This document shows, piece by piece, positions 9,091 to 52,299 of a stretch of DNA of 64,000 nt (the stretch's first letter is position 1; every line of letters starts with the position of its first letter). Source of the DNA: Novosphingobium aerophilum (GTDB taxonomy: Bacteria > Pseudomonadota > Alphaproteobacteria > Sphingomonadales > Sphingomonadaceae). Position numbers and translations under genes: made by a program. The notes under the pieces are model-generated. The model saw only the letters and a program-made list of their open reading frames with translations, searched no databases and was not told the origin of the DNA. The stretch is taken from contig NZ_JACLAU010000018.1 of assembly GCF_014230305.1 (NCBI RefSeq), forward strand, positions 1 through 64,000, read 5' to 3'.

Positions 9091-9681
9091 TTATCCGGCC
9101 TCGGCCAGGAGGGCCCTGGTCTCGGGGCTGCTCCAGTCGTTCTCCCCGGTAAAGCGCCAGACTTCCTTGCCTTCGCTGTCGTACAGGACGGTCATCGGCA
9201 GGGTTCCGCCGTTGTAGTGGAACGCCAGATCGTTGTTGGGATCGAGCCAGGGCTGCAGCCGCTTCAGCCCCTTGTCCTTGAGGAACGCCGCGACCTTGGC
9301 CGGATCGCCCGAATCCTGCGAGACCGTCACCACCCGCACGGCGCCGCTGCCGGCGAGGGCCTCCAGCGTGGGCAGTTCCTTGACGCAGGGCGCGCACCAT
9401 GTCGCCCACAGGTTGATCAGCACCGGGCGGCCCGCCAGGCTTTCCAGCGCAAGCTCGCGACCGGTGGGATCGGTGAAGCTCAGGTTGGGCAGGGGAGTCC
9501 CCGCGTTGGTGTGGTCCGGGCCCTTGCCCGGTTGGGCCGCCGCCGTGGCCGGAGCGGTCGCGGCGGTCGTCGCGCCTTGCGCCGACGGGTCGGCTTGCCT
9601 ATCGCACCCGCCCAGCGCCAGAACGCCGAACGGCAGGCTGCAGCCAAGGACCAGGGACGTGAGCGAGCGGGATATCAGCAA
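9091..9681 (-). CDS. TlpA-like thioredoxin-fold lipoprotein
   Basis: A periplasmic thiol-disulfide protein anchored to a membrane by lipid. With a TTG start at 9681 it has a type II signal peptide ending in LALGGC (lipidated Cys26), an Ala/Pro/Gln-rich linker and a redoxin domain from about residue 60. The active site is WATWCAPC (Cys96, Cys99), followed by the cis-Pro region [11 protein letters not shown]. Such proteins reduce cytochrome c or CuA-site cysteines or act as general periplasmic reductants; a cytochrome oxidase cluster is encoded 12 kb away, but the link is only suggestive. No ATG start is available; a second TTG at 9693 is possible. Divergent from argH with almost no spacer. Confidence 0.82.
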
Positions 9682-35897: not shown

Positions 35898-35973
35898 GGG
35901 CCCTTAGCTCAGTCGGTAGAGCAACTGACTTTTAATCAGTAGGTCGCTGGTTCGAACCCAGCAGGGCTCACCA
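35898..35973 (+). tRNA. tRNA-Lys (anticodon TTT), CCA encoded
   Basis: A 76-nt tRNA: acceptor GGGCCCT with AGGGCTC, D-arm GCTCAGTCGGTAGAGC, anticodon stem ACTGA/TCAGT around CTTTTAA (anticodon TTT), T-arm GCTGGTTCGAACCCAGC and genomic CCA. Its 3' half is the integration site of the 16-kb island and is duplicated at 52253-52299. Confidence 0.97.
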
Positions 35974-35974
35974 T
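35928..35974 (+). repeat. attL (47-bp direct repeat in tRNA-Lys)
   Basis: The 47 bp from ACTTTTAATC to GGGCTCACCAT (anticodon loop through CCA plus T) are repeated exactly at 52253-52299. The flanking bases differ on both sides. Confidence 0.95.
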
Positions 35975-35978
35975 AATT

Positions 35979-36000
35979 TTCAAAGACTTAAGTCTTTGAA
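35979..36000. repeat. Perfect 22-bp palindrome just inside attL
   Basis: TTCAAAGACTT at 35979-35989 is followed immediately by its exact reverse complement AAGTCTTTGAA (35990-36000). It begins 5 bp after attL. It may bind the integrase or excision factor, or act in ending the tRNA transcript. Confidence 0.8.
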
Positions 36001-36031
36001 GCTGCCATCGCGGGTGGCGCAACGACCCGCT

Positions 36032-36052
36032 AGGCATCATATAGGCATCAGA
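36032..36052. repeat. Arm-type repeat, left end
   Basis: Two copies of AGGCATCA 13 bp apart (36032 and 36043 region) match, at 20 of 21 bases, the pair at 52126-52146 near the other end, in the same orientation. Likely integrase arm-binding sites. Confidence 0.75.
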
Positions 36053-36070
36053 CGCTGTCGATCTCGGCCG

Positions 36071-36586
36071 GGCCTATACACCGCGCAACCTCAGGCAGCA
36101 GGAGCACCCTTCCCGGCGCCCTTAGTCGAGAAACTTTCCGGCATGGCGATCTCAATGCTGCTGCGGCGCATGGGGCGCGATACGATCACCGTGCATGGCT
36201 TCCGCTCCACATTCCGTGACTGGGCAGGAGAAGGCACTTCTTTTCGCCGCGAAGTGGTGGAGCGCGCCATGGCGCAACAACTCGCCGACAAGGCAGATGC
36301 GGCGTATCAGCGCGGCACGCTGTTTCCCAAGCACACAAAGCTCATGGCCGCGTGGGCGGCCTTCTACCTGCTCAGCAAGCTCTATGAGCGCACCAGCGTT
36401 ATCATCACCACCAACCTGAGCTTCTCAGAGTGGGCGGTGGTCTTCGGCGATGCCAAGATGACCACCGCGCTCCTCGATCGGCTCACCCATCACTGCCACA
36501 TCCTGGAGACCGGAAACGACAGCTTCCGCTTCAGGGCCAGCAGCGCCGCAGCCCCCAAATCACGAAAGGCGAAATCACCCGCTTGA
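36071..36586 (+). pseudogene. Chimeric remnant: integrase C-terminus fused to IS21 IstB C-terminus
   Basis: One open frame joins two unrelated fragments. The first (about 36100-36360) is the C-terminal part of another P4-type integrase: [34 protein letters not shown] and [19 protein letters not shown], with the HxxR box but no nucleophile Tyr after the usual spacing. The second (about 36361-36580) is the end of an IS21 IstB ATPase: [32 protein letters not shown] and [11 protein letters not shown]. The join lies near Ala-Ala-Phe at about 36358. Neither part could work. Confidence 0.85.
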
Positions 36587-36600
36587 CCCTAGCCTCGCAC

Positions 36601-36680
36601 CGGGGGGCACATATCCACCCGGGTCAATTCTCGATGGAAATCCCGGGTCACTTCTCAGTGGCAATCAACAAAAAGGGGCC
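36601..36680 (+). mobile_element. IS21-family right-end fragment
   Basis: After the istB remnant stop, spaced repeats GGGTCA-TTCTC (36623-36634 and 36645-36656) and AATC elements resemble the multiple terminal repeats of IS21 ends. The other end and istA are absent. Confidence 0.5.
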
Positions 36681-36719
36681 TGATCACGAATGGGTCTTTG
36701 TTCCATGGATGTGACGCAG

Positions 36720-37913
36720 TCAGAAGACCTTGCGCAGCTCCACCGACGTATCGCAGCCCTTGCGCTGGAAGTAGCCGATGTTCGAGTGCACGAGATCGCA
36801 GGAGAGCGCGACTGCCGGAATGAAGGGCCCAAGACGGACCTTGTAGGAGCTGGCCGATACCGAACCGAAGATCCGGCGCTCTTTTCGGCGCTCACCGAAG
36901 AACGGATCGGCGGCGCCGAACACGGTCAGCGAGGCCTGCAGCCCGCCCTCGAGGTTGATCAGGTCTGATTGGCGCGAAGCTAGCGCGCGGATGGCGACCG
37001 CGGTGAAGGCCTGCTCCCGGTAGCTGGCCTCACGGTGGAGGAGGCTGGGGCCGATCGACAGGGCGCGCGCGGGTGACGGCGAGTAGATCAGCGGCACATA
37101 GGCTTCCATCTGGATGCCTGATGCCGCCGGCCCCGCATCCGCCCGGTAGTAGGCTGCCGTCATAGCGGGCCGCAATCCGAGCTTCGGTCCGAGCGGCACC
37201 GAATAGGCGCCCTGCACGTAGGGCAAGGTGAAGGACAGATCGGTCTGGGACAGCCTCGCTGCGCCGACCTTCACCTCGAGCGGAGTGTTTCCGATCTGGC
37301 GGGTAACGCTGCCTTCGAGCCCGACCTGGTCCGCCCTGTCGAGCGGTAGGTTTCGCCAGGATGCGCTGGCGCTCACAAGCCAGCCACCGCGCAGTTCTTT
37401 GACGTAGGAGCCGCTCAGTGTCGTGCCCCACTGGTTCCGGTAGCGCTCGTCGGCCTCGTAGGTGAGCGCGATACCGCCGAAGTTGAGGGTGTAGGCGCCG
37501 GGTTGCTGAAGCGGGTTGCTGTACCGGGCAAACCCCGTGCCTAGCGTCAGCTTGCCCTTGAGCCGGTCTATCCGGTTCAGGAACGCGAGGATGTTCGCTC
37601 GGACGACAGGCGGAGGGTCGTCCTTGAACGCCTCCACGAACAGGTCCCGCGAAGTCTTGAACTGACCCGAGAGCATCAGCGCCCGCGCGAGCTCGAGCCG
37701 CACGCGCGGTGTCGGCGTGGCGGCGTAGATCTGCTTCAGGATTTCAGCGCCGAGATCCGGCCGGCCAGTGTCGATCAGTTGGACTGCTTCTAGGAACCGG
37801 CTTTCGACAACGGCGCTGCGGATGGGCGCGAGGACGGGTGCAGGAGGCTCACCCGTACCCGGTGCGGCGGCTGTCAGGAGGGCAGCCGCCGCACTGAGCG
37901 GGAGCAACGTCAC
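36720..37913 (-). CDS. Surface lipoprotein assembly modifier (Slam-like), outer-membrane translocator
   Basis: A 397-aa protein with a signal peptide (LPLSAAAALLTAAAP), an N-terminal TPR-like helical domain (about residues 30-110: LGAEILKQIYAATPTPRVRL, ELARALMLSGQF, DLFVEAFKDDPPPVVRANI) and a C-terminal barrel of alternating strands ending in VELRKVF, a typical outer-membrane C-terminal Phe. This matches the Slam family (DUF560), which moves certain lipoproteins across the outer membrane (type XI secretion). The start is GTG 37913, overlapping the stop of the upstream lipoprotein gene as GTGA. The pair is therefore a coupled cargo/translocator operon. Confidence 0.85.
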   Translation of the reverse strand: MTLLPLSAAAALLTAAAPGTGEPPAPVLAPIRSAVVESRFLEAVQLIDTGRPDLGAEILKQIYAATPTPRVRLELARALMLSGQFKTSRDLFVEAFKDDPPPVVRANILAFLNRIDRLKGKLTLGTGFARYSNPLQQPGAYTLNFGGIALTYEADERYRNQWGTTLSGSYVKELRGGWLVSASASWRNLPLDRADQVGLEGSVTRQIGNTPLEVKVGAARLSQTDLSFTLPYVQGAYSVPLGPKLGLRPAMTAAYYRADAGPAASGIQMEAYVPLIYSPSPARALSIGPSLLHREASYREQAFTAVAIRALASRQSDLINLEGGLQASLTVFGAADPFFGERRKERRIFGSVSASSYKVRLGPFIPAVALSCDLVHSNIGYFQRKGCDTSVELRKVF

Positions 37914-38842
37914 TGCTTCCCGCCGAAGCCTCCGACCATGGCGCCGGCGGCGCCGCGCAGCACGAAGGTTCCGCCCAGCTCCGTTGCGGCAGGGCCGTAG
38001 AATGAGCCGGTGCCGATGCCGGTGAGCGTAGAGGTTGTGAGTGTGCCCGAGAATGTGTTGGAACCAGCGGCGTAGGTCATTGTGCCGCTCATCGGCGTCG
38101 TCCAGTTGTAGGCCACGTTCGTGTTGATGTTGGTGACGACATCGCCGCTGGTCGACAGGGCGACCGAGCGATTGGCGAAGTTCACGCTGAAGGCTGCGTT
38201 GGCGCCGTAGCGGAAGGCGTCACCGTTCGGATTGGTGAAGATCGCGGCCGCATAGCCTCGGAACGTCGCCGTGCCGGTCGTCGGCACGCTGGCTGCCGCT
38301 GTCGTGGCGCCGGCCGAGATCGCACCGTACTTGCCGGTCGATCCAGCGACCAGGCCCGTGCCCCAGGCACCGAACGACTGGTAATTGAACCCGACGGCGT
38401 AAGGATCGATGTAGATCGCCTGGTTGGAGCCGGTCGAGTTCGACAGCGCGGTGGCGATCGCGGTGGTCCCGACAAAGACCGAGGCAGCGCTCGAGGTCTG
38501 GTCAAAGGACACGTTGGACTGCGCGCCGGTAACGGTGAGCGCTGTGATCTGACGGTTGGCGTTGACGGTGAAGTTGACGCTGCCGGTTCCGTCGGTACCG
38601 CCTGAGACGTTCGCCGAGGGGATGCCGCCCAACGAGTTGACGCTGAGCGTGCCTTCCTTCGTCGTGCCGTTGACCAGGGTTGGCGTGTTGGCCGCGACGC
38701 TGGCGAAATTGGTGAAGGCGGGGGTCGTAGGCGTGGGCGTGGGCGTAGGCGTGGAGACAACGGCCGAGCCTGACCCGCCGTCTCCGCAGGCCGAAAGCGC
38801 CGCGCAGGCAGAAATGATCGTCAGAAATTTCGAAAAACGCAT
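37910..38842 (-). CDS. TbpB-barrel-type surface lipoprotein, probable Slam substrate
   Basis: A 310-aa lipoprotein: signal peptide with lipobox LSAC (MRFSKFLTIISACAALSAC), a Pro-Thr repeat linker (VVSTPTPTPTPTTPAF), then a Gly/Ser/Thr/Ala-rich beta domain. The C-terminus TGSFYGPAATELGGTFVLRG then GGFGG is the signature of the eight-stranded barrel found in transferrin-binding protein B and other Slam substrates. Partner and ligand are unknown; family members bind iron or heme proteins, cobalamin or host factors. GGGGG precedes the ATG at 38842. Low charge and strong Ala/Thr bias are notable. Confidence 0.85.
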   Translation of the reverse strand: MRFSKFLTIISACAALSACGDGGSGSAVVSTPTPTPTPTTPAFTNFASVAANTPTLVNGTTKEGTLSVNSLGGIPSANVSGGTDGTGSVNFTVNANRQITALTVTGAQSNVSFDQTSSAASVFVGTTAIATALSNSTGSNQAIYIDPYAVGFNYQSFGAWGTGLVAGSTGKYGAISAGATTAAASVPTTGTATFRGYAAAIFTNPNGDAFRYGANAAFSVNFANRSVALSTSGDVVTNINTNVAYNWTTPMSGTMTYAAGSNTFSGTLTTSTLTGIGTGSFYGPAATELGGTFVLRGAAGAMVGGFGGKQ

Positions 38843-38888
38843 TGATTGACCCCCATGTTCGGATCGTGATGCCGCAGTATCCGCAATC

Positions 38889-38902
38889 GGAACTATAGTT
38901 CC
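38889..38902. promoter_or_regulatory. Palindrome GGAACTATAGTTCC, possible operator
   Basis: A perfect 14-bp palindrome lies in the 95-bp spacer between the lipoprotein gene and the XRE fragment. It is positioned to control both and may be the binding site of the XRE-type regulator whose remnant begins at 38938. Partial repeats TTCGGA occur on both sides. Confidence 0.55.
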
Positions 38903-38937
38903 TTGTTCGGAATTGTGTGAGCGGAAAGTGGCCGCTC

Positions 38938-39290
38938 ATGTCCGACCTCACGGCATTGCTGCAGACTCTGGCGGTCAACGTGCGCCGGGAGCGGTGCGTT
39001 CTGGGGTTGTCCCAGGAAGAACAGGCGCACCGCGTAGGCATCCGGGTGTTCGACCCTGCTTGCGGATCAGGCAATTTCCTCGTGATTGCCTACAAGCAGA
39101 TCCGCGAAATCGAGGTCGAGATCAATCGCCGGCGAGGTGAGCCATACCGCCGCACCGAGATCCGGCCGACGAATTTCAGAGGCATCGAGCTACGAAGCTT
39201 CCCGGCCGAGATTGCGCGCCTTGCCGACCGGCCGCTCAGCGCAGCGAGACCGGCAGCTTTCGGCTCGAGCTGGCATTCCGAGCTCGGGAT
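38938..39290 (+). pseudogene. Chimeric remnant: XRE regulator N-terminus fused to DNA methyltransferase fragment
   Basis: The frame starts with MSDLTALLQTLAVNVRRER and LGLSQEEQAHRVGI, the first helices of an XRE-family DNA-binding domain, then changes abruptly at about 39040 to VFDPACGSGNFLVIAYKQIR, motif I of an N6-adenine DNA methyltransferase of the large restriction-methylation type, with INRRRGEP and ITNFRGIELR-like (here PTNFRGIELRSFP) sequence. After about 39230 it no longer resembles either and runs as a shadow of the next gene. It is a deletion fusion with no complete domain. Confidence 0.8.
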
Positions 39291-39420
39291 CGGAACGGCC
39301 TATTCTGGTCGACTGCCACCGGAAGCGGTCGCCGGATCTGGGGTTAAGCCGATTGCCTTCAATTCAAGGAAACTTTCGACTGTCCCCCAGCTCGAACTCT
39401 GCAAGGCTCAGGACAAAGCC

Positions 39421-41361
39421 CTACTCCAGCGGCTGGAACCCGCACGCCTCGAGGAACGAGAATATACCATCGTAGTATGCCGACGGGCGCGTCGGGTCCT
39501 CGCCGGTGCCTTGCGGGACAAACACAACCAGACCCTGCCGCGCGCGCGTCAGCAGCACACGGTAGGAGTTCGTCAGGTAGTTCTTGCGGGCCGGATCATT
39601 GATGCTCTCCCAGCGGCTGCCCTTGAAGCGGTGAACCTCCCAGCCGTTAGCCCCGTGGCGAAAATTTGCATCCCAGCACAGGCAGGCCCAGTCCAGCTCC
39701 AGCCCCTGAACATCGAACTCGGTGGCTGCGTCCTCGAGCATGTCGGACGAGCGCACGTCATCGGGCGAAGCCAGAAACCATTTCGCGGGCTCAATCTTGG
39801 CCTTGATGAAGATGCCGTGCGGTTTGAGACGCGCGGCGTTGGACGAGGCCAGCAGGCCCGAACGCTCATTGCCCCGCCGTTGCTCGCGCAGCCAGGTGCG
39901 AGCTTTGTCGAGGTCGCGGGTGATCAATACGGGGTAGTTTGGCAGTTCGGCCGCCACAGCACGCGCAGCAACGGCGTCGCCGGCGACAACATGCCCTACA
40001 AAATCGGACAGCTTCTCCGCCCGAAAGGATCGGATCGAAGTCGACAGATGCAGGTCAGGTGCTGGCACCTCCTGGACGATCTGGCAGCCGTGGCGAAGCG
40101 TTGACGGCACATGCGCCTGCCAATGCGGGAAGCTCCGCTCCAACGCCCGCAGCCACTCGTCAATGCCGGCTTCGCCGGTGTTGATCTCCTGCCCGCCCCC
40201 GACCAGACAGATGATGGCGCACCAATCCGGGTGGCGGTCCATCACGCTCAGCAGGAATTCCGGTTCCGACATCGAGAAGCCGGTCTGTCCCTTTTTCTCG
40301 CGCATGAACTTGGAGGTTTGTTCGACATCCCAGGCCCGTTGGGCTTCGTCGAAGACCGCCACCTTCTCAATCGGCGCTGCGGTTGTGGCCAAGGCATCGT
40401 CGCGGAAGTGGTGAATGTTCTGAATGAAGGCGGCCGCTTTTCGCTCTTCGGCCACCTTAGAGGTGCGGATCCCAGCCTCTTTGGCCACGGCTATTGCATC
40501 GATGGCGAGCGCTTCGCGCAGCACGTCGACCAGGGGGCCGTTGCCTGAAAGGAAAACCGCGTGTTCGTCGCCGTGGGCGCGCTGACGGGCGGTGGCCAAG
40601 TTGAGCCCCGCCAGCGTCTTACCTGAACCCGGAACGCCAGTTATGAAGCAGATGATCTTCTGCCGATCGCGTTTTGCGGTCTCGATGGCCTGGGCCACGT
40701 AGTCGGCGGTGCGCGTTAAATTTTCCGCTCCGGCCTCCGAGCGCGAGATCTCGTCGACCTGGTGGCCGCGGTAAAGTGCCTGCGCGGCCTCCACGATGGT
40801 GGGTGTTGGGCGATAGCGACCGTTGAGCCACTCCCTCGCCAGGATTGGCGGATGCGCTGCAGTGCCGGCAATCTGCGCGATGAGGGGCGCCAATCTAGCG
40901 GGCGCTACGCGCAACGGACGAGCCAGCCCATCCTCGTGCCAGTGAAGGGTCTCACCCTCGCCGGAAGGAGCCTCTGTGGCGACGAGAATGGGTACTATGG
41001 GCAAGCGATGGCTGGGCTCATGGAAATGCTTCAGGTCGAGCCCGTAGCCGTAGACCTGATCGAGACCCGAACGCTCGAAATGCCGGGCGCCGATCTTGTA
41101 TTCTACCACGAACACCACGTCGCACAGTAGAACCACAAGGTCAGCGCGGCGCCCCATGCGCGGGATCAGAAACTCGAGCATGAAGTGCGCGTCGGGCAAA
41201 TCACGGGCGAGCAACCGCAGGTGCTGGATCTCATATTCCCAGGCGGCGCGTTGAGCGGGCTCTACGGCGAAGGGCAGCTTCAGCGCGAGCTCGCCATACA
41301 ACTCGCTGTCGCTTGCGGACGAGACGTCAGATGCGGCAACGGAGAGATAGGCGCGATGCAT
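39421..41361 (-). CDS. DUF2075/Schlafen-like ATPase-helicase with N-terminal nuclease-like domain
   Basis: A 646-aa protein. The N-terminal about 200 residues contain a PD-(D/E)xK-like arrangement (RMGRRADLVVLLCDVVFVVEYK, with Asp and Glu-x-Lys near 70-90). The ATPase part has Walker A GVPGSGKTLAG near residue 240, Walker B VAVFDEAQRAW near 335, and helicase-like motifs to the C-terminus (FDVQGLELDWACLCWD, NSYRVLLTRARQGLVVFVP), as in superfamily 1 helicases. Such nuclease-helicases occur in defence islands and DNA repair. ATG 41361 is favoured over 41418 because it follows a cleaner context. Convergent with the XRE/methyltransferase debris. Confidence 0.85.
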   Translation of the reverse strand: MHRAYLSVAASDVSSASDSELYGELALKLPFAVEPAQRAAWEYEIQHLRLLARDLPDAHFMLEFLIPRMGRRADLVVLLCDVVFVVEYKIGARHFERSGLDQVYGYGLDLKHFHEPSHRLPIVPILVATEAPSGEGETLHWHEDGLARPLRVAPARLAPLIAQIAGTAAHPPILAREWLNGRYRPTPTIVEAAQALYRGHQVDEISRSEAGAENLTRTADYVAQAIETAKRDRQKIICFITGVPGSGKTLAGLNLATARQRAHGDEHAVFLSGNGPLVDVLREALAIDAIAVAKEAGIRTSKVAEERKAAAFIQNIHHFRDDALATTAAPIEKVAVFDEAQRAWDVEQTSKFMREKKGQTGFSMSEPEFLLSVMDRHPDWCAIICLVGGGQEINTGEAGIDEWLRALERSFPHWQAHVPSTLRHGCQIVQEVPAPDLHLSTSIRSFRAEKLSDFVGHVVAGDAVAARAVAAELPNYPVLITRDLDKARTWLREQRRGNERSGLLASSNAARLKPHGIFIKAKIEPAKWFLASPDDVRSSDMLEDAATEFDVQGLELDWACLCWDANFRHGANGWEVHRFKGSRWESINDPARKNYLTNSYRVLLTRARQGLVVFVPQGTGEDPTRPSAYYDGIFSFLEACGFQPLE

Positions 41362-41546
41362 CTGGTGTTGCTGAATTATAGCGCCAGTTCTGGCAACCCG
41401 AATGTGCCGGACGCCCAAGGGTGCCGATCGAGCGGGAGGCCAGGCGCGGCACCTGAAGGGTGGTAGCCCGGAGCATATCGCGTATTCAGTTTAGCATAAT
41501 CTAATCAATGCCATAGTCCTATGCCTTCTTGAGCGGGGCATGGGGA

Positions 41547-42245
41547 TCACATTTCGACGTTACCGATTGCAGTACGCCGGCGACGCCTCCAGAGCCAAAC
41601 TACGAGCGCAAAGTAGGCGATATTCATCAGGACCAGCACCGCATCAAAGTAGAGCCTGTTCTGGGCCTTGAAGGCCATTTTTTTGCGCCAATAGACCTCG
41701 CCACCATCGGCCAGCGTGACATTTTCATCCTTCAAATTGCCGCAAGGCTTCAGTTGCGACTTTAGCGCATAGTCTGGGATCACAGCCTTCTTGCGAGTTA
41801 ACAATGTGAAACTCTCAGCATATCGATCAACTATATAGGTATTTTTCACACAGATCGGACTATCATCACTGAATATTATTCGACTATTGGTCCAACTCGC
41901 AATTTGATACCGAATAAAATAGTCATCCATATAATTTCCGATGATGTTGACTGATGCAATAACGCATTCATTATTGGACTTATCACAGACAATTTCCTGA
42001 GAATTCAGTACCAATTCACCCTCAGGAGTTTCCGCCTTATTATCGTACGTCCCTTTTGCATAAAAATAACCTTCGTCCCATCGGGAGACGTCAAAGCTTC
42101 GTAATGCAGGCGCGACGGGGAGAGCTCTATTTTCAATCAGATCGTAGCCAACAAAATATACAGCCATGATCGCAACCCAGCCACTTAGCGCAAGAAAGCT
42201 CCAACCGATCGTGGCAGCGACAGCATAAAATCTAAGCCGTTTCAT
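41547..42245 (-). CDS. Membrane protein of unknown function
   Basis: A 232-aa protein with an N-terminal helix (AVAATIGWSFLALSGWVAIMAVYF), a roughly 150-residue extracytoplasmic domain and a C-terminal helix (DAVLVLMNIAYFALVVWLW) followed by an Arg cluster. The middle has paired Cys (IVCDKSNNECV; PICVKN; KPCGNL) that could form disulfides. DNA is clearly AT-richer than the neighbours, a sign of recent transfer. ATG 42245 begins MKRLRF; a longer frame to 42578 is GC-rich nonsense. Third and last gene of a leftward cassette. Confidence 0.65.
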   Translation of the reverse strand: MKRLRFYAVAATIGWSFLALSGWVAIMAVYFVGYDLIENRALPVAPALRSFDVSRWDEGYFYAKGTYDNKAETPEGELVLNSQEIVCDKSNNECVIASVNIIGNYMDDYFIRYQIASWTNSRIIFSDDSPICVKNTYIVDRYAESFTLLTRKKAVIPDYALKSQLKPCGNLKDENVTLADGGEVYWRKKMAFKAQNRLYFDAVLVLMNIAYFALVVWLWRRRRRTAIGNVEM

Positions 42246-42390
42246 TCTACCAACCCATAAATCTAGCGGCACCGTTTCAAATGTCTGAATTCGGGCTGGA
42301 TGAACAGCGTCAACGGAACATGGCCAGCTGCCGTTGCCGCTCTTCGACAGTACACCCACGAGTGGCCCACGTCGTCGCCTGCGGCCAGCT

Positions 42391-42771
42391 TCAGCTGATA
42401 GCGCCAATCCGCACCCACCGCCTGAACGGCCCGCTGTAGATGCACACCAAACGCACGCGCGTTCCCGCGAATTGGGCAAGGATGCCTCGTTTGCCCACCG
42501 GCACGTCAAACTGGTAGGACTGTCCCACCCGCGTAAGTTGGTAGTCGCGATAATCCAGCCACCCACCGACATAACCATGCGCTATGGCAAGCCGCTCCAG
42601 ATGTTCCCTCATGCGGGCCTTCTGGGATGTCCAGGGGGCGATACGGACGATTTTGGCAGCCTGCACACCGATCAGGTCATCGCGCGTGTCTGGCAGCATC
42701 AAATAGGGTTCTATGACAGTGCGCCGCCACCCGCGAGCGTAGAACACCGTGAAGCCCTCAGGCGTCTCCAT
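42391..42771 (-). CDS. Hypothetical protein
   Basis: A 126-aa soluble protein I do not recognise, rich in aromatic and Arg residues (FYARGWRRTVIEPYL; YRDYQLTRVGQSYQF). ATG 42771 is chosen because GGGGAGG lies 6 nt upstream; ATG 42777 is also in frame. It overlaps the preceding gene by a few codons, which suggests that the two are co-translated. Possible relatives are small immunity-type proteins, but this is not supported by a motif. Confidence 0.6.
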   Translation of the reverse strand: METPEGFTVFYARGWRRTVIEPYLMLPDTRDDLIGVQAAKIVRIAPWTSQKARMREHLERLAIAHGYVGGWLDYRDYQLTRVGQSYQFDVPVGKRGILAQFAGTRVRLVCIYSGPFRRWVRIGAIS

Positions 42772-43243
42772 CGACATCCTCCCCGCGATAGAGGCGATGC
42801 GTGTTCTCGTTGCTGGTGCCTAGTTCTTGTTCCCACTGATAGAGGTCTCGGGCAAGGAAGCGCAAAGGCCGGAGGTGGTCGGGATATTCAACGGGCTCTT
42901 CCTCGTCGCTCACGTCCACCGGGGGCTCGAGCCGGTGATAAAAGTCAAAGGGTGAGTATCTCGACCGCTCAATGCCGCTGCAGATGGAGGCTGTAATCGG
43001 GCTCTCGTAGGGCCTGTGGCCATGTTCGTAGGCAGCCTGGACAAGCCAGGCAAGGGTCGGAAAATAATAGCGGTTACGACCCGCACGTATGACCAGCGCG
43101 TTCAACATGACAGCATCCGCACCGACATTGTCTAGGCTGGGAAATTCTGCACGAAGTTTACGCCGCACCTCGTCAAGCAGTGCTCCCGCCGCCGCTTCCA
43201 CCTGCTCCTGCTGCTCTGCCACGTTAAAGAACCAACCCGCCAT
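42758..43243 (-). CDS. Hypothetical protein, first gene of a three-gene cassette
   Basis: A 161-aa helical, acidic protein without a recognised domain. It starts MAGWFFNVAEQQEQVEAAAG and has an acidic stretch (VDVSDEEEPVEYPDHLRPL) before an aromatic C-terminus. ATG 43243 has a strong AGGAGG 7 nt upstream, which overrides the longer frame to 43372. The stop overlaps the start of the next gene, so the two are coupled. In an island with restriction-type genes, a role in defence or element maintenance is possible but unproven. Confidence 0.62.
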   Translation of the reverse strand: MAGWFFNVAEQQEQVEAAAGALLDEVRRKLRAEFPSLDNVGADAVMLNALVIRAGRNRYYFPTLAWLVQAAYEHGHRPYESPITASICSGIERSRYSPFDFYHRLEPPVDVSDEEEPVEYPDHLRPLRFLARDLYQWEQELGTSNENTHRLYRGEDVDGDA

Positions 43244-43571
43244 CGGGCGCCTCCTATATTTGCCCATGCGGGCCTCGTCATAGTGCCACCGATGCCGAAG
43301 TGGGCCGGTTGGCAGGGCAGGATGCCCTTCTGGACGATTGCATCTGGCTATCACGTTGCAGGCGGAGTGCAATCAACATTTGATTGCCGATGCATTACCC
43401 TGACTATCCGCACCCCATTCTGACACTGGCGGCCTTGATCGGGCCTGATGCGCCCAATCTCCAGCCAAAAAGAAAAGCTATTTCCAGCCGAAGCAAATCA
43501 GGATTGCGGCTGGATCGAGTGGCAAGCATTCTTAGCTTGATCTTGAGAAGGTATCTGACAATATCAAACTG
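43244..43571. other. Spacer between divergent small genes
   Basis: About 328 bp with promoter space for the leftward cassette. A 62-aa rightward frame (43384-43572) is present but looks unlike a protein. No repeat or operator is evident. Confidence 0.4.
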
Positions 43572-43851
43572 ATGGAAATTTCATTCGCTAAGCTTTGCGT
43601 AGCCGCAGGATTTTTGGCGTTGGTACCGTGCGCGATAGCGTTGTGGAAAATCGATGCGAGAGAGGAATGTTCCAACAGGATGCAGGCGAACAACGCTGAA
43701 TTGGCGTGGCTTGCAGGTGGACAGTATCATGGAAGCGCTGAGCTAGCGGCTCATGTTCATGGCGCGATTTTAGCTTCTAGGATTAATGGGACTAATTGCG
43801 AATTCCTGCTCCCAGTGAGCAGTATTGCGAGCAAGTGGGTAGACGCGCCGT

Positions 43852-43853
<2 letters not shown>
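43572..43853 (+). CDS. Small membrane or exported protein, unknown
   Basis: A 93-aa ORF beginning MEISFAKLCVAAGFLALVPC, a single hydrophobic segment that might be a signal anchor, then a polar part with Cys residues (EECSNRMQ; GTNCEFLLP). DNA is AT-rich relative to the surroundings. There is no clear ribosome-binding site, and the gene is truncated or bordered by an IS66-like end immediately after its stop, so it may be a remnant. No family recognised. Confidence 0.4.
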
Positions 43854-44831
<978 letters not shown>

Positions 44832-44876
44832 CCTAATTGAAACTGCCTCCGGAAAACCCGGGACGCTTCAATCTAG

Positions 44877-44916
44877 GGTCTCGGCCAAGGCGTTGTCGTA
44901 ACTGTTGCCGACACTG
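44877..44916 (-). pseudogene. Small fragment of another IS3 OrfB
   Basis: On the minus strand this 40-bp stretch encodes [13 protein letters not shown], the conserved IS3 motif around the catalytic Glu. It lies beyond the plus-strand IS3 end (about 44871) in opposite orientation, so a second IS3 element was present and mostly deleted. Confidence 0.75.
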
Positions 44917-44983
44917 CTACCTGACTTTTGTCTAATCCCCGGGGGCACTTCATCCGCGAGAACAACGCAACGTTAGTCACCCG

Positions 44984-45571
44984 TTACCAAATCCTGCTCG
45001 CCAGTCGGTGCAGCTCATCGTCGACGAACATTTGCTTCGCCACCAGCCTCGTCAGCAGCCGCTCCCGCGTCGGCTTGCGGGCGTACTTGGACAGGGCCGT
45101 GAGGCGGCTGGTGGCCCTGTCGATAGCCCGGTGCGCCCGGTGAACCTCGTCCTCGCGTTGCGACCCGTAGGCCACGCCCCAGCCCCTCACGGACGCGAAG
45201 TGCACTTTGCCCGGCGGAAGCACCAGCGTGGTGCAGCGTTTGCCCGTGTGGGGGCACAGCGCGTACCACCGCTCGCCGCCAAAGCGCATTGGGGCGCTGT
45301 CGAGCCAAACGAGGGCATTTATCTGCCTGCCGTGGGCGTGGCCGGTGATCTTGATGCAGGGGTACGGCTCGCGGCAGTCCAAATCGCAGACCAGCGCAAG
45401 CTGCGCCACAGTCTGCCCGTCTCGGGTCCACGTGAGGGTGCGGCGGTTCATGCAGTGGCGCTTGATCACGCCCAGGCGCTTCAGGTCCGGCAGCGCGATG
45501 CGCAGGCAGTCATCGGTGGTCGCCCGGGTGGTGCGCCGCCCTGATCCGATGCCACCCACGATCGCCTCCAT
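44984..45571 (-). CDS. Hypothetical protein with GGxGSGR N-terminus
   Basis: A 195-aa protein starting MEAIVGGIGSGRRTTRATTDD followed by CLRIALPDLKRLG. This GG-x-GSGR plus Asp-Asp-x-x-(I/L) N-terminus marks a widespread but uncharacterised family on alphaproteobacterial and phage-like islands. A middle Cys/His-bearing segment (RWYALCPHTGKRCTTLVLPP) could hold a zinc ribbon. The C-terminal third is helical and basic. ATG 45571 fits the family; the longer frame is not conserved. Located after the GIY-YIG gene on the same strand. Confidence 0.7.
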   Translation of the reverse strand: MEAIVGGIGSGRRTTRATTDDCLRIALPDLKRLGVIKRHCMNRRTLTWTRDGQTVAQLALVCDLDCREPYPCIKITGHAHGRQINALVWLDSAPMRFGGERWYALCPHTGKRCTTLVLPPGKVHFASVRGWGVAYGSQREDEVHRAHRAIDRATSRLTALSKYARKPTRERLLTRLVAKQMFVDDELHRLASRIW

Positions 45572-45671
45572 TGATCGAAATAATTTGCATAAATAGCATA
45601 GTTGATCGGATTTGTCGATGAATGGACCTGCTGACCGAAAAGGCCGGAGCACCAAGCAACGGGCCCCTGCA

Positions 45672-46280
45672 TCATTTCATGCGACGCTGCTGATTGCCTT
45701 CTTGAGCGATTGGTGCCTCTCTGGCCTGCCGCTTGGCTTCTTGTCTCATTGCGGAAAGAGCCACGCAAAATGGGTGGCGCCGATTATCTTGGATGTTTAG
45801 CGGCACGCTGTGTGCAGCCAATAACTCTTGTTCATGCAGCCAAGGCTCGGGGTGTTCCGTCCAGCATACGAGCGCATTGCGCTCCAGCCAATCGTCCAAC
45901 CATTGCTCGCCAAGGTGCGTGAAGGTCATACGCTTCCCACTGCCAACCCGGCGCAAGGGGAAGTCACTGACAGGAGCGAGCAGCGCCCCCAGCGTAAGCC
46001 TCAAGGTCGACCCTTCGGCATTACCCTTGTAGTGATATGCAACCCTTTTTCGCAGGTTCTGGCTGCTCTGAGCATTCTTGGGCGAGATGCCCAGATAAAG
46101 GAGGGTCAGTCCATCGCGGGTGTAGCAGCCATCGGTTGGCACACCGGGAGGTACATCGCGGAAGTACCATGCGTAAACACCGCGCGTAGCGGGTATCAGG
46201 CCAGTTTGCGCAAGCACCTGCTGGCGTGTGAAAATCGGAGCGTGTGCGAAGAACGACACTGACAGCTCAACGGTCTTCAT
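45672..46280 (-). CDS. GIY-YIG nuclease family protein
   Basis: A 202-aa protein. The signature strands appear as GVYAWYFRD and LLYLGISPK (for GIY and YIG), then LRKRVAYHYKGNAEGS with the conserved Arg and His/Tyr, and a Glu in LHEQELLAAHSVPLN. This is the arrangement of a GIY-YIG endonuclease domain of the short type. It overlaps the upstream mrr gene by 14 nt, suggesting a two-part restriction or repair module. Its target is unknown. Confidence 0.8.
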   Translation of the reverse strand: MKTVELSVSFFAHAPIFTRQQVLAQTGLIPATRGVYAWYFRDVPPGVPTDGCYTRDGLTLLYLGISPKNAQSSQNLRKRVAYHYKGNAEGSTLRLTLGALLAPVSDFPLRRVGSGKRMTFTHLGEQWLDDWLERNALVCWTEHPEPWLHEQELLAAHSVPLNIQDNRRHPFCVALSAMRQEAKRQAREAPIAQEGNQQRRMK

Positions 46281-47184
46281 CGAAGAAATCTTCGTCCAAC
46301 CGTTTAACCTCGACCATCCTGGTCAGGCGCACGCCGACGCCGAATTCGATCATCAGTTCCGTCAGGCGCTGACCATCCATCAGGATGACCCGCTGCTGAA
46401 GGCCTGCAGCATATTCATTCGCTTGCCTGCTGAAGCTCGACGTCGTGACAAAAACGCCCTTGCCGGCACCGAGCCCCACGAGGCTTCCCACAAACCCCTG
46501 TATTTCAGGCCTGCCGACCACGTTGCCATCGGCATAGCGCTTCGCCTGCACGTAGATGCGGTCAAGACCCAATCGGTCCTCATCGATAATGCCGTCAATC
46601 CCGCCATCACCCGACCGCCCAAGACGGCGCGCAGCATTTTCGTGTGACCCTCCGTAACCCATGGCCACCAAGAGATCGACGATTACCCGCTCAAAGAAAG
46701 ACGGGGACTGCTGCATGATCCGGCCGAGCAGTTCATCGCGAAGGGCCGATACAAGAACGTTCTGCGCGGCGTCGATCTGTTCTTCTGGCGTCACAGCGCC
46801 GGGGGCTGGATGGGTTAGTCCGGCCTGACCCTCAATAGCACTCGCTGCGCCATAGAAATCGCGGAACGCAGGGTAACCTTTCAGGGTCTCCACATCGATC
46901 TTCTTAGGCCGGGTAGCCAACAACGCCTTACCTGCCTCGCTGGCGGTAAACACCCCGCGCTTAGGGCTGGCGATCAGCCCGGCTTTGCTCATGTAGAACT
47001 TGGCCCAGTGCACGCGATTGTGGAGGAGACGTTGCTTGCCGTTCGACATCATCTCTTCCCGTTCGTCAGACGACAGCCCGAACAGGTCAGCGACGCGGTC
47101 CGCCACGACCGGCGCTCGCGTTTCACCCTCGGCCGCGACAGTGAGCACAGGAAGCATGAGGGTCTGGTAATCAGGAATGGGCAT
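46267..47184 (-). CDS. Mrr-like restriction endonuclease
   Basis: A 305-aa protein with an N-terminal Mrr winged-helix domain (about 1-110; LMLPVLTVAAEGETRAPVVA at the start) and a C-terminal PD-(D/E)xK nuclease domain: FFERVIVDLLVAMGYGG, DGGIDGIIDEDRLGLDRIYV, then VQAKRYADG (Gln-x-Lys) as the catalytic strand. Mrr enzymes cut DNA carrying foreign methylation or when triggered by other nucleases (type IV restriction). Coupled with the GIY-YIG gene. No methyltransferase is complete in the element; only a methyltransferase fragment at 39040-39230 remains. Confidence 0.9.
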   Translation of the reverse strand: MPIPDYQTLMLPVLTVAAEGETRAPVVADRVADLFGLSSDEREEMMSNGKQRLLHNRVHWAKFYMSKAGLIASPKRGVFTASEAGKALLATRPKKIDVETLKGYPAFRDFYGAASAIEGQAGLTHPAPGAVTPEEQIDAAQNVLVSALRDELLGRIMQQSPSFFERVIVDLLVAMGYGGSHENAARRLGRSGDGGIDGIIDEDRLGLDRIYVQAKRYADGNVVGRPEIQGFVGSLVGLGAGKGVFVTTSSFSRQANEYAAGLQQRVILMDGQRLTELMIEFGVGVRLTRMVEVKRLDEDFFDEDR

Positions 47185-47360
47185 CAGGCTTGCATATCAA
47201 CCGGCCGGGTCAACCGGAACTGGAAAATCTTTGCGACCACGTTACCTTCGCGTGATCACAGTAAAAGCAATCCCGGCCAGTGGTCGGCGCGCGCGCCTCA
47301 CGCGAACGTGGTTTCCACCCGGCAATACCCCACCCCAAACTTCATCCCTCCGGGGCATGT

Positions 47361-47487
47361 CTCTGCTTCCACTGCTTCACCCCCTTAGGGTGTGTGAAGC
47401 AGTGGAAGCATTGAAGCAGCCTTTGCCGTTGACGCTTCATCTGGAGCCTTTGTCTCATTTGAAGCAAGATGAAGCTGAAGCAGCAGC
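47361..47487. repeat. Inverted repeat and GAAGC iteron-like cluster, candidate origin
   Basis: GCTTCCACTGCTTCAC (47365-47380) and its perfect complement (47394-47409) form a 16-bp stem. Around it TGAAGC/GCTTCA occurs at least seven times to 47487, for example TGAAGCTGAAGCAGC. The block ends at the stop codon of the primase gene. This density is what one expects of a replication origin bound by the element's own initiator; a terminator for the primase transcript is the alternative. Confidence 0.6.
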
Positions 47488-49596
47488 CTAGTCGCCAACA
47501 TTTACGTAGCCCGCGAAATGTTGAAAGCCGGGCACAAACAACCGCTCGCCAACAGTCACAAGGAACCCCTTGTCGCAAAGGCGGCTGAGTGCACGTACCA
47601 CGTGAGAGCGGCGCTGATCCCTAGGCCTCTTGGCACCTTCCGGAGGGGCCGGGTCGTACGGGATTGCGTTCACGGCACCGCCGATGACAGCGGTGCTCAG
47701 CGCCCCCTCCGGCGTCGCAGCGCCACAGGCGCGGGCAGTCTCCAACACGCGCTTCTCAGTGGCGCCCTTTGGCTCCGGAGGTGCAGCGATGGGCGTACGC
47801 GGCCGGTCAACATACTCGACCACGCAGCTGGAGATGGGATCGCCATCGCTGTCCGTACCAAGGGCCACGGTAGCAAGGCGGAAGCCCCAGCGCTTGCTGT
47901 CATCGCCGTCCTTCATCTTGGTCAGTGAAATCAGGCGCCCGCTGCCGCTTACGCTGATCTCGATCTCTGCGTCTGCGGCTGCCCGGATCCCCGACCAGCC
48001 GCGCGCACCGCGCGCGGCATCTTTGCCCGAGTGGTGGATGACCCATGCGGTTGCGCCGGTGAGCTCGGTGATCGTCCTGAGGTTCCGCAATGCGACGCCC
48101 ATGTCCTCGCCGCTGTTTTCATTGGCCCCGGGCGTCACCTGTGCAAACGTATCGATCACAAAAATGTCAGCCCCGCCCAGCTTGATGGATTTTGCAAGTT
48201 CCGACACGTCGCCGTTGTCTAGGACGTTGGGCGCTGCGAGCACGAAACCGATGTCGAGGTCGGCGGGTTCTAGTCCGTGGTGTTGGCAATAAGCATTGAC
48301 GCGGTTCTTCATGCCGCCAGCGCCTTCAGCGACGACAAAGACGACTTTCGCCCGCTTCACGCGGCACCCCTGCCACGGGATGCCGCGCGCAATGGCCGCC
48401 GCCATGTCAAAGGCGACGAAACTCTTCCCGCTGCCGGATGCGCCGTAGAGGACGATGAGGTCGCTCTTTGGCAGCACGCCCTTGATGAACCACTCCATCG
48501 GCTTGTGCAGATCCGGGTGGCTCACATGGTAAATGCGAAACTTTCCCGTGTAGCCCTCGGGGGTCATGACGCCTGAATGCCCCTGCTGATCGTCGGCGAC
48601 ACCCTCCCAGAGGTTGCGCACATCTTCGGCAAGCAAGGGCTTTTGTGCTTCGCGGGCCATCTTCATCACAGTGGCCATGGTCACAGAACGTTTGCCCGGA
48701 ACCAGTTTAAAGCTGCCCCATTGTACGCGCAGGTGTTCCTCGCTGGTGTACTTGCCCCCATTGCTGGACCAGTCGTCCCAGATGGCGAAGCCGGTGTCGT
48801 CGCCCTTACACTCGTGGTGAAGGGCCATGCCGACGCGGATCCACTCGTCCCGGCCCATGTCGGGATCGAGGCTCGCCAGTAGCGCCTCCATCTCCTCTAC
48901 CGTGAGCCCGAGGCACGGCTCACGCCCTGCCGTGAAGTCGTCTAATGCCGCGATACTCGATTGTTCCGCTCCGAACTTTTCCTCCAGTCTGCTCCAGATC
49001 GTGTTGATCTGATCGGCGGTCAGGGTGGGAGCTTCTGTGGGCAAGATTTCCCAATTGATACGGCTGCCCGATGGGTGCGTACCCGCAATCATAGCCTGTT
49101 GGCCGTTACCGAGGAACTCGATCTTGTTGGTGCCGTCCAACCCGATGACGCGCTTTGGCAGCGCCGCATCGCACCTGACGATCAGAGCGAACTTGGAAGA
49201 GTTCTCGCGGTACCGCAGGGGCACTCGATCCGAAGACACGCCTGCAAGGTCCGCAATAAATGGGCGCAGGAGGTCTTCCACTTGGTCTGCCAGCACCTGG
49301 TCCTCGATGTCGACATCGAAGACCTTGCACTGGCGCATCTGCATACAGATGCCCAAACGATCGTCGCTGCTCCACGCTTCAATCTCGTCCGCAGTGGCGA
49401 CCTTTCTGGTCCAATTCTTGAAGCCATGGGCCATCCCTTGACCGTCAATAGCGCTGGGTACTTTACCGAGCGCGGACAGCTTCGATCCTGGCCTGATAGG
49501 TACGGCCAGATCGCAGACTACAGGCAGCAGGTCAGCTGCCATTCCGGCCTCAACGAGGTGCTGCCAAAAATCTCTAGATGCTCCGAGCGCGCTCAT
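47488..49596 (-). CDS. Primase-polymerase/helicase replication protein
   Basis: A 702-aa replication protein. The N-terminal part (about 1-200) resembles bifunctional primase-polymerase domains (FDVDIEDQVLAD with the catalytic acidic pair, KIEFLGNGQQAMIAGTHPSG). A PriCT-type region follows (residues about 230-310; MGRDEWIRVGMALHHECKG). The C-terminal half is a RecA-like hexameric helicase: Walker A LYGASGSGKSFVAFD near 385, Walker B IFVIDTFAQVTPG, and the IHHSGKDAARGARGW sensor segment. Such proteins start replication of satellites and plasmids. Coupled by a 4-nt overlap to the 84-aa gene before it. Confidence 0.88.
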   Translation of the reverse strand: MSALGASRDFWQHLVEAGMAADLLPVVCDLAVPIRPGSKLSALGKVPSAIDGQGMAHGFKNWTRKVATADEIEAWSSDDRLGICMQMRQCKVFDVDIEDQVLADQVEDLLRPFIADLAGVSSDRVPLRYRENSSKFALIVRCDAALPKRVIGLDGTNKIEFLGNGQQAMIAGTHPSGSRINWEILPTEAPTLTADQINTIWSRLEEKFGAEQSSIAALDDFTAGREPCLGLTVEEMEALLASLDPDMGRDEWIRVGMALHHECKGDDTGFAIWDDWSSNGGKYTSEEHLRVQWGSFKLVPGKRSVTMATVMKMAREAQKPLLAEDVRNLWEGVADDQQGHSGVMTPEGYTGKFRIYHVSHPDLHKPMEWFIKGVLPKSDLIVLYGASGSGKSFVAFDMAAAIARGIPWQGCRVKRAKVVFVVAEGAGGMKNRVNAYCQHHGLEPADLDIGFVLAAPNVLDNGDVSELAKSIKLGGADIFVIDTFAQVTPGANENSGEDMGVALRNLRTITELTGATAWVIHHSGKDAARGARGWSGIRAAADAEIEISVSGSGRLISLTKMKDGDDSKRWGFRLATVALGTDSDGDPISSCVVEYVDRPRTPIAAPPEPKGATEKRVLETARACGAATPEGALSTAVIGGAVNAIPYDPAPPEGAKRPRDQRRSHVVRALSRLCDKGFLVTVGERLFVPGFQHFAGYVNVGD

Positions 49597-49847
49597 GCCG
49601 CACCGCCGTCGAGCAACCTGCCCAATTGGAGAACCTTCGCGCAGTATGGTGCCAGAGCCACATCGACTTTCCGAGCCAGCGCTTGTTGCTTTGCTGGCGA
49701 TGGAAGGCGCGGGTCCCAGATCACCTCGACGGGAAATACGCCGTCGAAGTCGTAAAGAGTGATCTCGATGTGGTACTTGGAGGTCACGCGAACGCGACCG
49801 CGCATCACGGCGCGCTGGCTAGCGCCGGGGATATCGGCTATACGCAT
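49593..49847 (-). CDS. Small hypothetical protein in the replication operon
   Basis: An 84-aa protein of unknown family (MRIADIPGASQRAVMRGRVRV...). It is mostly beta/alpha with an acidic middle (YDFDGVFPVEVIWDPRLPSP) and no HTH. It starts at ATG 49847 and overlaps the primase gene as ATGA. Position between the AlpA regulator and the primase is typical for small accessory replication genes of integrative elements. Confidence 0.65.
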   Translation of the reverse strand: MRIADIPGASQRAVMRGRVRVTSKYHIEITLYDFDGVFPVEVIWDPRLPSPAKQQALARKVDVALAPYCAKVLQLGRLLDGGAA

Positions 49848-49906
49848 GTGGGTTCTCCGAGGGGCGGCGACGGTTGGGCCTGCGCCGCCCTTTTCATGTT
49901 GGGTTG

Positions 49907-50119
49907 TCAGGCCGCGCTCTGCGCTGCGCCGGTTGCGCTAGTCGAAGCGACCAGCCTGCTCTCAAGCCACGTATCGAGATCGGCGCGGCGGTACCGCACG
50001 GCACCGCCCAGTTTGGCGTAGGCCGGGCCTTCACCCGTCACTCTGAACCGATCCAAAGTGGGCTTTCCGAGGCGCACATAACGCGCTGCCTCGACGGTAG
50101 TCAGAACATCAGAATTCAT
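49907..50119 (-). CDS. AlpA-family DNA-binding regulator / excisionase
   Basis: A 70-aa winged-helix protein of the MerR-like/AlpA type: LTTVEAARYVRLGKPTLDRF is the HTH, followed by GPAYAKLGGAVRYRRADLDTWL, the standard wing and tail. AlpA-like proteins activate excision or act as recombination directionality factors next to P4-type integrases. GAGGTG precedes the ATG at 50119. Gene order int-orf-alpA-orf-primase on one strand suggests a common life-cycle module. Confidence 0.85.
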   Translation of the reverse strand: MNSDVLTTVEAARYVRLGKPTLDRFRVTGEGPAYAKLGGAVRYRRADLDTWLESRLVASTSATGAAQSAA

Positions 50120-50198
50120 CGCCGGTCACCTCATTTTGTCAGGTGACGGATCAAATATGCCCATGTTTTCATGAAGTCTGCGCGAAAAAGTTGCGCAG

Positions 50199-50789
50199 TT
50201 AATTCGCGTTGTCGGTATCGCGGCGCCCCCTACGCGTACCCGGATCCCGCTGCTGTACCGAGGCATTATGTTGCTTCATTGCATTCAACTGCTCCGGGTT
50301 GCTACGTGCCCATGCGACTCCGGTTTCAGTCAGTAAACTCGCCACTGAGCCCTTATTCGCGTACGCCTTCCTGCCCCGCGATATCGTCGACGCCTTATCG
50401 GCGTGTCCTGCCTCAGCGCCAACGGCGCTCGCTGCGAGGTTATAGGCTTCCTCGGCGCCGACGCCGAGCGCGCCTTGGAAGAACGCGGCATTGGCATGAA
50501 CAACGCGGCTAGTGAACTCTCTTAGGACCTTTGTGGGCTTACCGCCGCGCTTGTCCGCCCCGTGCAGGCGTCTTTCGGCAGCACGGGCCGCTAGCACTTG
50601 TATCGTGTTCGGTAGAGGCACGCCTTCGCTGGTCAGCCTCCAAACCATAAGATCAACCCAGTTTAGGTCTTTGGTCTTTGTCAGCTCAGCCAGATGGTTG
50701 AGCATCTCAAGGCCAAGAGCCGTGCCTGCATGAACGCCTAACTCGTGCTCCAGCTGTTCGATCAATGTCTTCTCGCTCTGATCGCTCAT
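50199..50789 (-). CDS. Hypothetical protein coupled to the integrase
   Basis: A 196-aa helical protein I do not recognise. It has a Gln/Glu-rich start (SDQSEKTLIEQLEHELGV), an Arg-rich centre (LAARAAERRLHGADKRGGKP) and a basic C-terminus (PGTRRGRRDTDNAN), compatible with a DNA-binding accessory factor. ATG 50789 overlaps the integrase stop and has GGAGG 7 nt upstream. It lies between int and alpA. Confidence 0.65.
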   Translation of the reverse strand: MSDQSEKTLIEQLEHELGVHAGTALGLEMLNHLAELTKTKDLNWVDLMVWRLTSEGVPLPNTIQVLAARAAERRLHGADKRGGKPTKVLREFTSRVVHANAAFFQGALGVGAEEAYNLAASAVGAEAGHADKASTISRGRKAYANKGSVASLLTETGVAWARSNPEQLNAMKQHNASVQQRDPGTRRGRRDTDNAN

Positions 50790-52093: not shown

Positions 52094-52105
52094 TTCAGCC
52101 CCTTC

Positions 52106-52146
52106 CTGATGCCTGCATCAGCGCCAGGCATCAGATAGGCATCAGA
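52106..52146. repeat. Arm-type repeats, right end
   Basis: AGGCATCAG is repeated at 52126 and 52137, and its inverse CTGATGCCT occurs at 52106-52114. The 52126-52146 block matches the left-end block (36032-36052) at 20 of 21 bases. They sit upstream of int, between int and attR. Confidence 0.78.
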
Positions 52147-52252
52147 TTGGTGCAAATCAACGACAAATTCTGATATCAGGTGATAGAATTATATGACTGT
52201 AAATCAAATGTTTGAGTATAATCGCGACGGAAATCGGCCACTTTATCGCTAA
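52147..52252. other. AT-rich spacer before attR
   Basis: About 106 bp of AT-rich DNA (for example AATTATATGACTG near 52186) that should hold the integrase promoter and bending-protein sites. No gene. Confidence 0.5.
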
Positions 52253-52299
52253 CTTTTAATCAGTAGGTCGCTGGTTCGAACCCAGCAGGGCTCACCATC
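52253..52299 (+). repeat. attR (47-bp direct repeat of tRNA-Lys 3' half)
   Basis: Exact copy of 35928-35974, from ACTTTTAATC to TCACCAT. It restores only the 3' half of the tRNA, so the functional gene is the left copy. Confidence 0.95.

Follow-up and report, generated by a model that had tools for sequence, protein, structure and literature searches.

The gene pair at positions 36720-38842 of a 64,000-nt stretch of Novosphingobium aerophilum DNA (contig NZ_JACLAU010000018.1, here called the window) raises the question of what a translocon and its lipoprotein cargo are doing on a mobile island of a sphingomonad. Surface display by Slam has been studied mostly in animal-associated bacteria. 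A preliminary description, made from the sequence, had placed the host correctly among the sphingomonads. We consider it probable that the two genes form a compact Slam-cargo surface-display cassette that integrative elements carry as an exchangeable payload, switched by an XRE protein; this reading draws on the observed genes, domains, predicted folds, att repeats, related elements and conservation of a palindrome.

The product of the downstream gene (36720-37913, minus strand, GTG start) is a Slam/T11SS-family protein with a TPR head and a 14-strand barrel. This compact outer-membrane translocon of 397 aa, identified from Pfam, its model and its relatives, has a hydrophobic N-terminus with no basic residue at the start, TPR-type helices (residues 33-119), a barrel (121-395) and a C-terminal Phe. 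The Slam and cargo genes overlap by 4 nt (GTGA), the cargo stop TGA lying within the overlap that starts Slam, and the Slam layout claimed for this overlapping gene holds among its relatives. When compared with Slam/DUF560 profiles, as the preliminary description had proposed, the protein itself matches SlipAM (PF04575; E 0.0016, residues 262-397 only) but with 18.5 bits it stays below the cut-off of 22, while the aligned relatives all match: SlipAM is found at E 0.01 or better in all 11 aligned members, the window included (best 5.5e-19), and TPR_Slam (PF24575) in seven of the 11, the window protein not being one of these. TPR_19 also matches under its cut-off (E 5e-4), an NCBIfam scan of the protein gave no match, and a SlipAM profile search of its own genome at E 0.001 returned nothing. 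With a single-protein score below the cut-off and a miss in the genome search, the assignment would be weak from the 397-aa protein alone; it is settled because its aligned relatives match SlipAM and TPR_Slam. Scanned singly, the homologues likewise straddle the SlipAM cut-off, with 23.2 bits for that of Chakrabartia godavariana (L034), which passes, and 16.7 for the own-genome paralogue (L033), which fails. Over 92% of its length, the protein can be aligned with a Sinorhizobium meliloti protein annotated as 'surface lipoprotein assembly modifier' (25% identity).

Structure prediction, named in the preliminary description as a check for an outer-membrane barrel, gave a predicted barrel. The AlphaFold2 model, built from an 11-row alignment, has a pLDDT of 86.9, with low confidence in residues 1-30, and contains five helices at 33-119 followed by 14 long strands at 121-395 by our count (block pLDDT 82-97 in strands). 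The best 11 matches align the barrel with CymA and OmpG over 221-269 residues (Z 20.7-22.4, rmsd 3.0-4.0 A); the whole model also resembles two exporters of TPR-barrel type, with a lower Z for both BcsC (13.5) and PelB (14.4). No Slam chain was among the fold matches listed, and therefore the fold search cannot decide Slam identity; a sequence search with the window Slam gave no match to any PDB chain.

The cargo gene (37910-38842, minus strand) encodes a lipoprotein of 310 aa with a handle and one TbpB-type barrel. The lipobox (LSAC) and Pro-Thr linker (PTPTPTPTTP), both noticed earlier, are read directly in the sequence, and lipidation is predicted. The TbpB barrel suspected at the C-terminus was confirmed by PF01298 (TbpB_B_D), which matches residues 186-310 with E 1.4e-10 and 42.2 bits, over the cut-off of 26; this is the only such stretch in the protein, a C-terminal eight-strand barrel according to Pfam, and all eight aligned cargo members match the family. 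The NCBIfam model 'Slam-dependent surface lipoprotein' also matches, under its cut-off of 80 (E 4.6e-8, 33.5 bits). In a fold search the predicted model (pLDDT 78.5) matches the TbpB C-lobe (5kkx), haemophilin (6om5), HpuA (5ee4) and fHbp, with Z of 13.3-16.5 and rmsd of 2.4-4.8 A among the 50 matches listed, and these include known Slam cargo. The 310 residues contain no histidine.

How widespread such pairs are was the subject of a proposed survey of sphingomonads, which found six compact pairs: that of the window; a second one in the same genome on contig C91 (L033), whose Slam is 53% identical to that of the window; one each from Chakrabartia godavariana (L034, by position the same locus as L080), Sphingorhabdus wooponensis (L043, likewise L078) and the Sphingomonadales MAG REEB392 (L079); and L042. 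In overlapping samples of 298, 396 and 397 genomes, the window Slam matches 29 of 298 family genomes at E 1e-3, the open frames concerned being mostly larger (447-573 aa), and the compact group is rare, being detected in four of 396 order genomes at E 1e-15 and, by an alignment search, in four of 397 family genomes, one of which (G084) is a weaker match in a larger frame. A profile search of contigs with the single window protein found nothing; rerun with the alignment A3 it gave 13 loci, ten of which have a cargo gene of TbpB type that directly precedes the Slam frame or overlaps it (L078, L080-L085 and L089 by pattern, L079 and L087 by reading the sequence; no cargo gene by pattern in L086, L088 and L090). 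More distant pairs come from Marinobacterium, an Oceanospirillaceae MAG, Neptunomonas, Shinella and a Desulfuromonadaceae MAG. Of 24 larger sphingomonad Slam loci, 22 show by a loose pattern a cargo-like frame within the 3-4-kb stretch that contains the Slam, two further loci that gave no frame having been dropped from the count.

An 11-row tree, whose branches are long, unites the six compact sphingomonad Slams in a single group (98/98). They are 380-397 aa long, with 51-69 residues ahead of a conserved R-x2-LELAR motif, compared with 97-129 residues, counted from the best leader start, in the larger sphingomonad Slams (n=22). In G218 a relative is reduced to a 61-codon frame. Downstream of compact Slams we observed a C/G-rich block of 64-105 nt that the loci have in common (L033:2949-3052, L034:~10604-10667, L035:~9010-9110); that of L033 occurs just once in its own genome and is not a dispersed repeat. 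By eye, the signal peptide of several larger sphingomonad Slams (L005-L028) is followed shortly by a Cys-x4-Cys motif.

The genomic setting was described earlier as a tRNA-Lys island, and this is correct. The integration target is a tRNA-Lys(ttt) gene found by tRNA search (35898-35973, plus strand), with the left att repeat at 35925-35974; the right att repeat (52249-52298, plus strand) is a 50-nt copy of the 3' part of this gene, 98% identical, and sets the extent of the island to ~35975-52298, 16.3 kb. Since this repeat of the tRNA 3' end and the tyrosine integrase gene adjoining the right att (50786-52093, minus strand) are both present, the island is by sequence a tRNA-targeted integrative element, with the Slam-cargo pair at its tRNA end, opposite the integrase. 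It also encodes a PriCT_2 primase/AAA_25 protein (47488-49596, minus strand), a 115-aa stretch of which is 53% identical to a Sphingorhabdus wooponensis element protein, a protein without Pfam match (44984-45655, minus strand) that shares 58% identity across 196 aa with one encoded by the S. wooponensis element, a GIY-YIG protein, a transposase, which we take to be of IS3 type, and IstB and MmeI fragments. Among the 13 island ORFs besides the pair Pfam found no receptor domain, and no haem gene was recognised on the island; a TonB-receptor plug gene at 62708 lies outside it. Two island genes are probably for defence, a Type IV Mrr-like restriction enzyme (46267-47184; PADLOC type IV) and a Schlafen-group-3 helicase (39421-41418; PADLOC candidate PDC-S41). 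Beside the tRNA, an ORF at 35996-36586 joins, by eye, an integrase C-terminal part to an IstB fragment; this ORF and the 25-nt repeats found at 36028 and at 52122 point to a previous element at this tRNA. Carriage of the pair by phages or plasmids was discarded, as the phage records searched gave no match and viral contigs no relative, and five plasmid records hold only distant relatives (<60% identity, one of them covering >80% of the query).

Three of the pairs, those of the window, L034 and L043, sit on tRNA-targeted elements of similar arrangement, at the end remote from the integrase, in the order tRNA end, Slam, cargo, palindrome, HTH gene, primase and integrase. The end of a tRNA-Ser is repeated just outside the integrase gene in L034 (14/14 nt) and in L043 (17/17 nt), delimiting elements of ~10.0 and ~12.3 kb; the integrase genes of both were recognised by their Pfam domains, and the window and L043 share a distantly related integrase (25%). 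The window integrase had no match in L042, L074 or L079. An intact tRNA gene lies at most 2.2 kb downstream of Slam in four of the six pairs (window 747 bp, L042 71 bp, L034 1655 bp, L043 2103 bp), L033 has the 3' part of a tRNA-Leu by reading only (ARAGORN finds none), and L079 has no tRNA in its 21 kb. No tRNA gene was found in 32 control loci of 3.1-4.1 kb each (27 from the Slam search, five from the TbpB_B_D search) with a script that recovered four known tRNAs as positive controls, a weak control because these loci extend at most 1.5 kb past the match. L033 and L034 have one protein in common, 54% identical. A protein with a leader-like start recurs in element payloads (L034:9257-9943, L043:7611-8159, L099:10203-10784), the L034 and L043 copies being without Pfam match.

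A perfect palindrome, GGAACTATAGTTCC (38889-38902, without strand), 46 bp before the cargo start, is a putative operator. Next to it lies a truncated, divergent XRE-type HTH gene of 37 codons (38938-39048, plus strand) that runs into the MmeI-type DNA methyltransferase piece. Allowing up to one mismatch, the palindrome has no other copy in the 4.19-Mb genome, and with two mismatches it is still the single site in the window, where 0.01 are expected. The identical 14 bp head the operons of the window, L034 and L043: they stand 62 bp before the cargo gene in L034; in L043 the same distance separates them from the first of two genes that precede cargo and Slam. In the relatives a divergent HTH_3 protein of 71-87 aa is encoded beside the palindrome. 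The 14-mer occurs in four of 377 family genomes, always next to an HTH gene of the same family (a remnant in the window), and in three of the four it heads this operon. In the fourth genome, G265 (L099:8476-9247), palindrome and HTH gene (59% identical to that of L034) face a gene whose 147-aa product is probably a barrel protein of the outer membrane (OMP_b-brl, E 0.0037, under cut-off), and the region also has a gene whose relatives adjoin the pairs in L034 and L043. By our count the reversed control pattern matches 12 of the 377 genomes, so the motif is not enriched in number; rarity alone therefore proves nothing, and it is the shared position that carries the argument. The exact palindrome is absent from the searched stretches of L033, L042 and L079, the L033 contig ending 1.1 kb upstream of the cargo, and with three of six pairs lacking it the switch is not universal. 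Nine viral contigs contain the palindrome; since their searched stretches gave no tblastn match (E 0.01) to HTH, Slam, cargo or integrase, we take those occurrences as chance.

Cargo and Slam do not share one history. By Slam identity the window and L033 are mutually nearest (52%), with 38% between L033 and L080, whereas the L033 cargo is 66% identical to that of L080 and 33% to that of the window (40% in pairwise alignment). The cargo tree joins L033, L080 and L078 (100/100) and the window and L033 Slams form a sister branch (93/94, not starred in the tree). A constraint joining the window and L033 cargo was rejected (AU p 2e-10), as was one joining the three Slams of L033, L080 and L078 (p 0.004), for clades that were chosen after the identities had been seen, the contrast being large; L086 and L087 were left out of the trees and L088-L090 out of the alignments. 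Cargo and Slam of the L033 pair are therefore of different ancestry, which, from the sequences, suggests that the cargo has been swapped.

The N-termini of the compact Slams are noticeable as well. That of the window is hydrophobic (maximum 12-residue KD 1.96) without a basic residue, and no signal peptide can be seen in four of the six compact Slams (four of five before L079 was added). These proteins (L033:3067-4212, L034:7983-9125, L042:8973-10130, L043:9165-10307) keep the barrel and the C-terminal Phe; their start codon lies where the cargo gene ends, which leaves no space for a hydrophobic leader, and none is seen. By a hydropathy rule a leader is present in L079, L081-L085 and 22 of the 24 larger sphingomonad Slams. 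A C-terminal Phe is usual in outer-membrane barrels, and all five sphingomonad Slams in alignment A3 retain it; L079 has a different end. The four signal-less homologues and the lack of basic N-terminal residues in the window conflict with ordinary outer-membrane assembly. We considered a translational fusion of cargo and Slam as the cause of the missing signals; simple readthrough is possible only in L033, and the fusion is rejected as a common cause because stops in the Slam frame separate the genes in L034 and L043.

By analogy with the T11SS literature, the cargo would be made with a lipoprotein signal, lipidated and brought to the outer membrane, where Slam, with its TPR head and 14-strand barrel, would pass it outward, the C-terminal eight-strand barrel of the cargo presumably acting as the recognition signal; handle and loops would then face outward. 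The cassette would be carried as payload of the 16-kb tRNA-Lys integrative element. Judging from the gene arrangement, the small divergent XRE protein of the related elements probably binds GGAACTATAGTTCC and switches the operon; as the HTH gene of the window is truncated, the pair here has probably been freed from local control. The context makes it most likely that the displayed protein alters the host surface for the benefit of the element, in phage or competitor interaction or in attachment.

Other readings of the locus have to be weighed against this cassette. A passenger in decay, non-functional here and left behind in an insertion-broken island, would account for the truncated HTH gene, the IstB and MmeI fragments on both sides, the transposase gene and the weak start of the Slam signal, and the 61-codon relative in G218 points the same way. 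Both reading frames are intact, however, and between the window and L033 dN is 0.40 and dS 2.6 for Slam, and 0.66 and 3.0 for the cargo, a rough sign of constraint only, because five of ten comparisons gave no dS owing to saturation; we regard decay as unlikely. More improbable still is an ordinary nutrient-capture T11SS pair, capturing either haem or a metal carrier on behalf of a TonB-dependent receptor and sitting on the island incidentally. Among the matches listed, haemophilin, TbpB and HpuA come nearest to the cargo in fold, and the plug gene at 62708 might belong to such a receptor though it is outside the island; against this stand the island ORFs free of receptor domains and a cargo with one TbpB_B_D stretch instead of two lobes. 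According to PMC8560813, haem is bound via two His in HphA and one in haemophilin, so a cargo without His is not a haemophore of that kind. The haemophore was accordingly dropped as main reading, and both haemophore and transferrin roles look unlikely.

That the 397-aa protein might instead be a porin or a channel for polysaccharide, fitted with a TPR head and next to the lipoprotein by coincidence, takes its appeal from CymA and OmpG as nearest solved barrels and from the matches to BcsC and PelB, and we give it very little credence: the SlipAM and TPR_Slam matches across the aligned members and the recurrent pairing with TbpB-type cargo speak for a Slam. For the surface-display cassette, three points seem worth pursuing from the sequences, namely the apparent element-linked switch, the cargo exchange and the seemingly signal-less translocons. 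A wider generalisation is tempting, and we hold it only tentatively and with more doubt than belief: small tRNA-targeted elements might re-dress the sphingomonad surface by an XRE/palindrome switch of exchangeable envelope proteins (Slam-cargo pairs or a small outer-membrane barrel), with a Slam that accepts swapped cargo and, in most members, needs no conventional signal peptide to reach the outer membrane. The compact element-borne pair offers a small test case for the minimum length of the TPR head of a Slam, for recognition between cargo and translocon after recombination, and for why mobile elements carry surface display. The signal-less homologues, if real, raise the question of how an outer-membrane barrel protein is exported.

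In kind, the sphingomonad T11SS, its Pro-Thr-linked TbpB-barrel cargo and its association with mobile-island markers are already known, and the preliminary description overstated how surprising the setting is. It had also missed the paralogous pair in the genome, the palindrome with its truncated HTH gene, the elements of related kind in other genera, the discordance of cargo and Slam and the absent signal peptides. Grossman 2021 (PMC8406197) describes T11SS subcluster 1C as largely environmental Sphingomonadaceae, with no characterised representative in 2021, and Grossman 2025 (PMC12282271) reports a Sphingomonas surface protein cargo with Pro-Thr repeats, T11SS co-occurring with transposases and tRNA-related genes, and only seven T11SS proteins experimentally verified in 2025; in our own search TbpB_B_D matched in 39 of 149 family genomes, 37 over cut-off. 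Two other papers state that Slam is a translocon with Skp as helper (PMC9090332) and that genes for Slam and lipobox proteins are adjacent in 185 of 353 cases (PMC5449769). Among the papers listed by searches of the open-licence PMC literature, none described the palindrome or the compact element-borne variant.

Compared with subcluster 1C (PMC8406197), the proteins studied here are likewise DUF560/SlipAM outer-membrane proteins of environmental sphingomonads, but the compact group is short and rare, its size contrast being measured against the 22 larger sphingomonad Slams of this sample. The Sphingomonas surface protein shares with the window cargo the N-terminal Pro-Thr stretch and the TbpB-type barrel; according to PMC12282271 it has two to three handle-barrel pairs, whereas the window cargo has one TbpB_B_D stretch. 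Haemophilin (HphA/Hpl with HsmA) is alike in its single handle and barrel, its similar size and its position adjoining its Slam, and differs from the window cargo, which is without His and has no receptor or haem gene recognised on its island. The neisserial pairs Slam1-TbpB and Slam2-HpuA share the domain order of the translocon and the C-terminal barrel of the cargo, but where neisserial TbpB has two lobes, according to PMC12282271, the window cargo has a single TbpB_B_D stretch.
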